64,000 bases of DNA from Sphaerobacter thermophilus DSM 20745 (GTDB lineage Bacteria > Chloroflexota > Chloroflexia > Thermomicrobiales > Thermomicrobiaceae). The stretch lies in contig NC_013523.1 in assembly GCF_000024985.1 (NCBI RefSeq), positions 1,922,001-1,986,000 on the forward strand, given 5' to 3'. Shown here one piece after another: positions 27,463-30,352 of this stretch. The notes below the pieces were generated by a model that ran no database searches, had not been told where the DNA came from, and was given only the letters and a program-made list of their open reading frames with translations. How positions within the stretch are numbered: position 1 is the stretch's first letter; every line of letters begins with the position of its first letter. The position numbers and the translations under genes were made by a program.

Positions 27463-28548
27463 ATGAAGCGTGCGGTCATCCTCATCCTCATAGCCGCCGC
27501 AATCGTGGCGTTGTTCGTTATCACCGACCTTGAGTCGATGAGCAGCGCCATCCTCAGCATGCCGGGCGAGATGTTCCTCGCTCTGGTTGCCCTCCTGGTC
27601 TTGAACGAGCTGGTCAAGGGCCTGCGCTGGGCCTTCTTCCTCCGGGCCGCGCGTCTCGACATCCGCATGGTGGACGGTCTGAGCAGCTATCTCGCCGCTC
27701 AGGCGGCGACGGCCATCCCGGGCGGCTCGATGCTGGGCGCCCGCCTGGCGCAGGAGCACGGCCAGGTGCGGATGCACCAGGCGGCCTCGGGCTTGGTCGG
27801 CCAGGCTCTGGCCGATGTCTGGGGCATCTCCCTGCTGGCCGCCGGAGCCATCTTCCTGACGGGCCAGCGCCCGGCACAACTCCTGGTACCCGGCATCGGC
27901 GTCCTCCTCTCGCTGGTGGTCTTCACCGGCCTCCGCAGCCCACGGCTGCGCTGCGCGGGTATCGGCTTCTTCGGCCGCTGGCGCGTGACGCGGCGCTTCC
28001 TCCCGCTGGAGGAGGACTTCCTGAAGCACGCTGCCACGCTGATGCGCTCGCGGACGCTCGCCATCGGCGCACTTTTCAGCGTTGCCTCAACCGTCCTCTC
28101 GGCCCTCATCCTGCTGGTCATCACCGCCGCACTGACCGATCGGGGAATGACCGGTGGCGAGGCGATCTACGCCCACACCGTCAGCGTCGCCACGCGGCTG
28201 GTGGTCCCGGTGCCGGGCGGCTACGGCATCGGCGACGCGAGCCTTGCCGGGATGCTCAACTACATCGGCATCGGTCTGGCGCGCGCGACCTTCATCGCCC
28301 TCGCCTACCGCTCCGTCGGCGTGCTGTTCCGCACCTTCCTCGGGCTGCTCATCCTGCTTGCCCGTTACCCGTACCTCCTCGTCGGGCCGATCGACATGCC
28401 GCGCCCGCAGCCGGTCGGCGTTCGGCGCTGGGCACCGCGCCCGCTGGCTCGCCGCGTCGGGCTGGCGCTCGTCGCGCGGTCCGCCCGAATGCGGGCCGAG
28501 CCGAGCACCGCAGACGTGTCCAGCACGACCATCCATGGGGGCGACTAA
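27463..28548 (+). CDS. Lysylphosphatidylglycerol synthase-like flippase domain protein (UPF0104)
   Basis: The protein has 361 residues with about eight hydrophobic segments and resembles the transmembrane flippase part of MprF without the aminoacyltransferase domain. Family blocks include LLVLNELVKGLRWAFFLRAA, AAQAATAIPGGSMLGARLAQ and VVPVPGGYGIGDASLAG (the PGG.G pattern). It may flip lipids or glycolipids. ATG at 27463 is weakly supported by the GGAGCGG upstream. It is followed by galE on the same strand. Confidence 0.8.
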   Translation: MKRAVILILIAAAIVALFVITDLESMSSAILSMPGEMFLALVALLVLNELVKGLRWAFFLRAARLDIRMVDGLSSYLAAQAATAIPGGSMLGARLAQEHGQVRMHQAASGLVGQALADVWGISLLAAGAIFLTGQRPAQLLVPGIGVLLSLVVFTGLRSPRLRCAGIGFFGRWRVTRRFLPLEEDFLKHAATLMRSRTLAIGALFSVASTVLSALILLVITAALTDRGMTGGEAIYAHTVSVATRLVVPVPGGYGIGDASLAGMLNYIGIGLARATFIALAYRSVGVLFRTFLGLLILLARYPYLLVGPIDMPRPQPVGVRRWAPRPLARRVGLALVARSARMRAEPSTADVSSTTIHGGD

Positions 28549-29628: not shown

Positions 29629-30264
29629 CTACCGCCGGCCGGATCGATCGGAGAAGCGCCGCGTCAGCCGCATCGGGAGCTGCGCGGTCTTCCAGGCAAC
29701 GCGCCGCCGCCGCGCGTCGCGCTCCCGCTCCGCCTCCCAGGCGCGCTGCTCGGCGGCGTAGCGACGGAGGCTGATCGCGCGCAGCACTTCGTGGCGAGCC
29801 CGCGCATCGAAGTTGGGCAGGAGCATCAGCGTGGCCTCGTCGACCCGCTCGACCGCCGCGATTGTGTGCAGCCCGTAGCGGTGCAGGAGGCGCAGCACCC
29901 GGGGGCTCAGGTCCAGCTCCTCAATCGGTGGCTGCAGGCGGCACCGCACCTGACGCCAGAGCTCCTCCACCGTTGCGATGATCAGCACCGGCACCGACAC
30001 AATCAGCACCGTCGCCGCCAGCCAGCCGACGCCGACAAGGACAAGACCGCCCGCCTCCGCACCCAGCAAGCGCATCGGCGCGTAGAGCATCGCGGCACTG
30101 ACCACGATCGCCCCGAGCGACCGGCGAATCGGATTGATGCTGAAGGGATCGAAGACGGTGTGCGTCGGCCCCGGCCCCAGCGCACGCCCACGGGATACCT
30201 GTCTCACCACCACCCGTCCCAGCCAGGAAGCCGCACCGGGCAGCCCCTGCCCGGGATCTTCCAC
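29629..30264 (-). CDS. Two-helix membrane protein with an RNA polymerase alpha-CTD-like domain
   Basis: The protein has about 211 residues. Two adjacent membrane helices (about 50-68 and 72-98) are followed by residues 113-165, PIEELDLSPRVLRLLHRYGL then HTIAAVERVDEATLMLLPNF. This tracks the RpoA C-terminal domain (P-V/I-D/E-D/E-L-x-L, then Arg at the R265 position, helix, GxHT, and the PN of the helix-hairpin-helix turn). The R265 and N294 equivalents are kept; N268 reads R, C269 L and K298 R. A highly charged Arg-rich helical tail (168-211) ends the protein. The start is uncertain: GTG 30264 is used but lacks a clear ribosome-binding site. A cytoplasmic nucleic-acid- or protein-binding module tethered to the membrane is inferred. 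Confidence 0.7.
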   Translation of the reverse strand: MEDPGQGLPGAASWLGRVVVRQVSRGRALGPGPTHTVFDPFSINPIRRSLGAIVVSAAMLYAPMRLLGAEAGGLVLVGVGWLAATVLIVSVPVLIIATVEELWRQVRCRLQPPIEELDLSPRVLRLLHRYGLHTIAAVERVDEATLMLLPNFDARARHEVLRAISLRRYAAEQRAWEAERERDARRRRVAWKTAQLPMRLTRRFSDRSGRR

Positions 30265-30352
30265 TATACCAGCGCCCCGGCACGGGGTACAGTAGCTGCG
30301 TACGAACCAATGGGAGACGCACCACCGCGCGCGAACGACACGGAGGCAATCT

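Follow-up and report, generated by a model that had tools for sequence, protein, structure and literature searches.

A membrane-anchored protein family related to the C-terminal domain of RNA polymerase alpha, conserved in one order of Chloroflexota

Bacterial RNA polymerase contacts upstream DNA and activators through a flexible arm, the C-terminal domain of its alpha subunit (alpha-CTD). Transcription-related domains are also known at the bacterial membrane, since ToxR, TcpP and CadC are membrane-tethered transcription factors that carry winged-helix domains, and ComEA is a membrane-anchored DNA receptor whose helix-hairpin-helix (HhH) domain lies outside the cytoplasm. A described system joining an alpha-CTD to a membrane anchor was not found in the mainly open-access literature searched, and to that extent the preliminary description of the present locus, which knew of no system of such shape, still holds.

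Here we analyse a gene of Sphaerobacter thermophilus, found in a window of 64,000 nucleotides (the whole stretch of DNA analysed), whose product carries a genuine homologue of the polymerase alpha-CTD behind a two-helix membrane hairpin (Table 1). It belongs to a real, previously undescribed conserved family, seen to date in a single order of Chloroflexota; what is new is the membrane-anchored architecture, and what is known is the alpha-CTD domain itself. We propose, with a rough probability of 0.4, that the protein may tether DNA, or else the machinery of transcription, to the membrane.

Table 1. Features of the membrane alpha-CTD gene and its product (window coordinates)
Feature	Residues	Position	Strand	Basis or remark
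Membrane alpha-CTD-like protein ORF	211 aa + stop	29629..30264	minus	GTG start as read
Juxtamembrane motif D-P-F-A/S-x-N-P-I-R-R-S, before helix 1	39-49	30118..30150	minus	alignment; predicted cytoplasmic
Membrane helix 1	~45-66	30067..30132	minus	prediction
Membrane helix 2	~73-99	29968..30048	minus	prediction and alignment
RNA polymerase alpha-CTD-like (HhH) domain	109-169	29758..29940	minus	PF03118, AF2, structural superposition
Equivalent of E. coli alpha R265	R122	29899..29901	minus	invariant, 19/19
Arg-rich helical C-terminal extension	170-211	29632..29757	minus	alignment and AF2

The reading frame is coding: mismatches between the window and a sister genome fall mostly at the third codon position along it, and 19 members of the same architecture exist. 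Its start codon is less certain. In the window sequence a TATAGT overlaps the GTG at 30264, and in-frame GTGs at 30213, 30210 and 30207 are preceded by GGGACGG; translation may therefore begin at one of these three, which would give a protein of about 192 aa. Whichever start is used, conservation sets in at residue 39. An extended -10-like TGGTATAGT lies at window 30263-30271, shortly before the later start candidates; it was missed by a sigma-70 scan and has no correctly spaced -35. No promoter or terminator consensus was found for the gene.

Identity of the domain is established by profile. The Pfam family PF03118 (RNA_pol_A_CTD) matches residues 109-163 at E=1e-6 and 28.8 bits, over the curated gathering score of 23.8, and 17 of the 19 family members match it individually at E<=0.01. 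The preliminary description had read two membrane helices followed by an alpha-CTD-like domain; the reading is upheld by the profile, by the predicted fold and by homologues in which helices and domain are both retained. RpoA chains rank first in a phmmer search of the PDB, and of the 52 PDB sequences that the family profile matches, 49 are RpoA, with XRCC3 and NusA last in the list (E 0.5-0.9). The alternative raised earlier, a general helix-hairpin-helix binder, therefore fits less well, as the match is specifically to RpoA, ahead of NusA and Rad51-type domains. Among NCBIfam rpoA models only residues 105-177 align, at no more than 25.3 bits against whole-protein cut-offs of at least 227, which indicates a domain and not a subunit. 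Neither a ComEA-type HhH family (Pfam and NCBIfam) nor a winged helix (Trans_reg_C or any other HTH family in Pfam) matched at E<=1. The whole host genome, searched with PF03118, has two matching places, rpoA and the gene described here.

A side observation concerns PglW, positions 803-882 of which are weakly matched (E 1.1e-4) by residues 110-187 of the protein (P0001; window ~29704-29937), which suggests an alpha-CTD-like segment in PglW and re-use of such domains elsewhere. A role in phage defence was rejected, since this weak match, taken as domain re-use, is its one support.

An AlphaFold2 (AF2) model built with six sequences has a pLDDT of ~91-98 across the alpha-CTD domain and ~69-90 across the hairpin. 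Superimposed with VIA-align, the predicted model has as its first match the alpha-CTD of S. coelicolor (7vpd_S), with 57 residues superimposed at 0.7 A and a Z of 11.7; E. coli 1lb2_B follows at Z 10.0, and the model of a typical family member gives Z 11.2 against 7vpd_S. Among the structural matches is PDB 9gds, a V. cholerae RNA polymerase complex with ToxR and TcpP. The N-terminal domains of Rad51 and Dmc1, of the same fold class, superimpose at Z ~9-10, but a Rad51/Dmc1-type identity was rejected because it is far weaker by sequence than RpoA. The helices are flanked by Arg residues, a pair ahead of helix 1 and a cluster behind helix 2, and the loop that joins them is neutral or acidic; from this positive-inside pattern both ends of the protein, alpha-CTD included, are predicted to be cytoplasmic.

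Full-length relatives were recovered in 19 of 158 genomes of the class, all of one order, and four further matches were RpoA. A profile search of all 61 Thermomicrobiales genomes returned 19 carriers with a single copy each, spanning 5 taxonomic families, and a motif of the type D-P-F-x-x-N-P-I-R-R-S, the hydrophobic hairpin and the alpha-CTD-like domain are common to all of them. The family profile matches in 305 of 400 Chloroflexota genomes at E<=0.001; among the matches listed outside the order there is no full-length relative, as these cover the domain only (approximately positions 80-165 of 170) and lie mostly in frames of RpoA length. Outside the Chloroflexota, contigs were scanned with one sequence, which detects close relatives only. 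No relative was found in plasmids or in viral contigs, and PHROGs gave weak matches for 3 of the 19 members (best E 8e-4), for which reasons a mobile or phage origin was set aside.

A tree of the proteins resolves the taxonomic families f1, f2 and f3 as a single group each, whereas two changes are needed for f5; such grouping by family is the pattern that vertical descent with losses would produce. The gene is missing from several near-complete genomes in the same taxonomic family (G118, G122, G125) and is thus dispensable. In a tree of 58 columns all 19 membrane CTDs stand apart from the RpoA CTDs, that of E. coli included, with 100/100 support, and the domain therefore seems to be of one origin, although a tree on so few columns can be no more than indicative. 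Two further observations concern rpoA itself. Many genomes of family f6, of the same class (among them G006, G007 and G009; loci L027, L048 and L050), hold two RpoA-length alpha-CTD frames, for example at C1:2965719 and C1:1146199 in G009, which suggests duplicated rpoA genes. An extra PF03118 match in G141 (a 101-aa frame, L109 1489-1794, contig C15) was discarded as the contig-truncated 3' end of rpoA adjoining an L17-like gene; this truncated CTD differs from the other rpoA match of the same genome and may reflect assembly contamination.

Cryo-EM work is reported to place R265 and N294 of the alpha-CTD in the minor groove, and K291 and K298 on phosphates (PMC7822876; also PMC5101437). The equivalents of R265, N294 and E302 are R122, N151 and E159. 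In the family alignment R265, the Arg recognised in the preliminary description, and N294 are both kept in 19/19 members, and E302 in 14/19. Of the positions that it listed as substituted, 268 retains Asn in 5/19 members and is His in 10, and 298 is Arg, a conservative change, here as in 17/19 of the family. Other positions depart from RpoA: S299 is kept in 0/19, position 291 is Leu in 16/19, and G296, which is Gly in all 20 RpoA compared, is Gly in 0/19 and Asp or Glu in 17/19, an acidic side chain that would point towards the phosphate backbone. The last helix carries a net charge of +2.3 in the family versus -0.3 in Chloroflexota RpoA, but summed over the domain the net charge does not exceed that of RpoA (+0.4 versus +1.3). 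Judged by alignment, the minor-groove core residues are kept and the backbone-contact site is partly remodelled, so that DNA binding may be altered or may have given way to a protein partner; DNA binding by the membrane alpha-CTD is plausible.

We infer that the protein binds DNA or transcription machinery and tethers it. In this proposal the two-helix hairpin would anchor the alpha-CTD, a domain that shares its ancestry with that of RpoA, on the cytoplasmic surface of the membrane; the surface formed by R265, N294 and R298, together with the more basic last helix, would bind either the DNA minor groove or a partner in the transcription machinery, and nucleoid or transcription complexes would thereby be kept near the membrane. 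We count in its favour the PF03118 match, the fold, the retained R265, N294 and R298, the basic last helix and the positive-inside pattern, and against it the acidic 296, the changes at N268, S299 and 291, the whole-domain charge and the lack of an informative neighbour. Of the original interpretation, the identity is borne out by profile, fold and homologues, and the tether function stands as a proposal, the DNA-contact set being partly kept and the gene context indecisive.

Nearly as likely as tethering is protein-only docking, a tentative reading in which the domain has lost DNA binding and serves as a protein-protein module, with RNA polymerase, sigma region 4, NusA, an activator or a non-transcription protein as candidate partners. 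It would account for the loss of the G296, N268, S299 and K291 equivalents, for the acidic residue found in 15/19 members at position 261 (a sigma contact in E. coli) and for the family-specific conservation of R272, D/E282, D286 and R305, and in the solved Spx complex 1z3e, a structural match, alpha-CTD surfaces do bind protein. The C-terminus also speaks for it, as nearly all members other than those of the genus Sphaerobacter end in a strongly conserved motif of the type W-K/R-Y-R-R-W-Q-E-x-G-F-P, absent from the most divergent member (G105), and this WKYRRWQExGFP end, which counts against the tether, could be the real functional site. The Arg-rich tail noted earlier is present, but it is specific to the two Sphaerobacter-genus members out of 19, where it takes the place of this motif, and not family-wide. 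What protein-only docking does not need is an invariant R265 and N294 or a basic 298, unless these are structural.

The tether proposal has a more specific form, which we consider unlikely, in which an alpha-CTD that split anciently from RpoA would capture UP-element-like (A/T-tract) DNA, or the partners of the polymerase, at the membrane. It is similarly improbable that the membrane part does the work, for example as a small membrane regulator or oligomer, with the alpha-CTD as a helical cap or oligomerisation unit. Conservation in or beside the helices would suit such a role: D39, F41 and P45 of the juxtamembrane motif are invariant and R47 and R48 at least 90% conserved, P63 is likewise among the invariant or near-invariant positions, P92 within helix 2 is near-invariant, and an invariant E100 follows directly. 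However, the alpha-CTD has as many invariant positions in the 19-member alignment (L117, R122, L127, R129 and N151), and it is the part that ties the members to a known family.

Gene neighbours, suggested earlier as a clue, are variable and name no partner. Upstream of the gene guaA is found at 7/19 loci, directly so in most, and a phosphoribosyltransferase at 2 of 19; a RusA-like preceding ORF (read by eye, with no Pfam match) and a convergent Rex-type DNA-binding regulator occur at 4 of 19 loci each, and the neighbours otherwise vary. In Sphaerobacter the gene stands alone between a convergent NAD-dependent epimerase and a divergent short-chain dehydrogenase; the epimerase gene adjoins one for a membrane protein matching LPG_synthase_TM (PF03706; window 27463-28548). 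No link to transcription or nucleoid organisation was seen among the neighbours of the 19 loci, and operon logic was abandoned as a guide to a partner, since the neighbours look like clade-level synteny. A ComEA-like receptor, with its HhH domain outside the cytoplasm binding incoming DNA, would share the membrane anchor and the HhH-class domain, but it is very improbable, given that the hairpin is predicted to have both ends inside, that the RpoA CTD matches best while no ComEA-type HhH family matches at E<=1, and that no competence gene occurs among recurrent neighbours. Chance similarity or a mistranslated frame, conceivable in a GC-rich genome with many open frames, is refuted by the Pfam match, the shared architecture across 5 taxonomic families and the coding substitution pattern.

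If tethering is correct, the family would be a natural re-use of a transcription-machinery domain as a membrane tether, and a compact one, with a soluble domain of ~60 residues and one invariant Arg; if the ancient-split form is true, a free-standing polymerase domain would serve these bacteria to organise transcription or their nucleoid at the membrane. In comparison with known systems, the family shares with RpoA the alpha-CTD by profile and predicted fold, keeping R265, N294 and a basic 298, but has an acidic 296, changed N268 and S299 and a different C-terminal motif, and it sits on a membrane hairpin without the alpha N-terminal dimerisation and assembly domain, so it is not a polymerase subunit. 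PglW may likewise hold an alpha-CTD-like segment outside RpoA, but is a large phage-defence protein (~1,400 positions) whose remainder has no match to the family. ComEA also combines a membrane anchor with a helix-hairpin-helix-class domain, although of a different HhH family, whereas the domain described here is of the alpha-CTD type and both protein ends are predicted to lie inside. Like ToxR, TcpP and CadC, the family would keep a transcription-related cytoplasmic domain at the membrane, but theirs is a winged helix, whereas here the anchored piece is the alpha-CTD-type domain itself.
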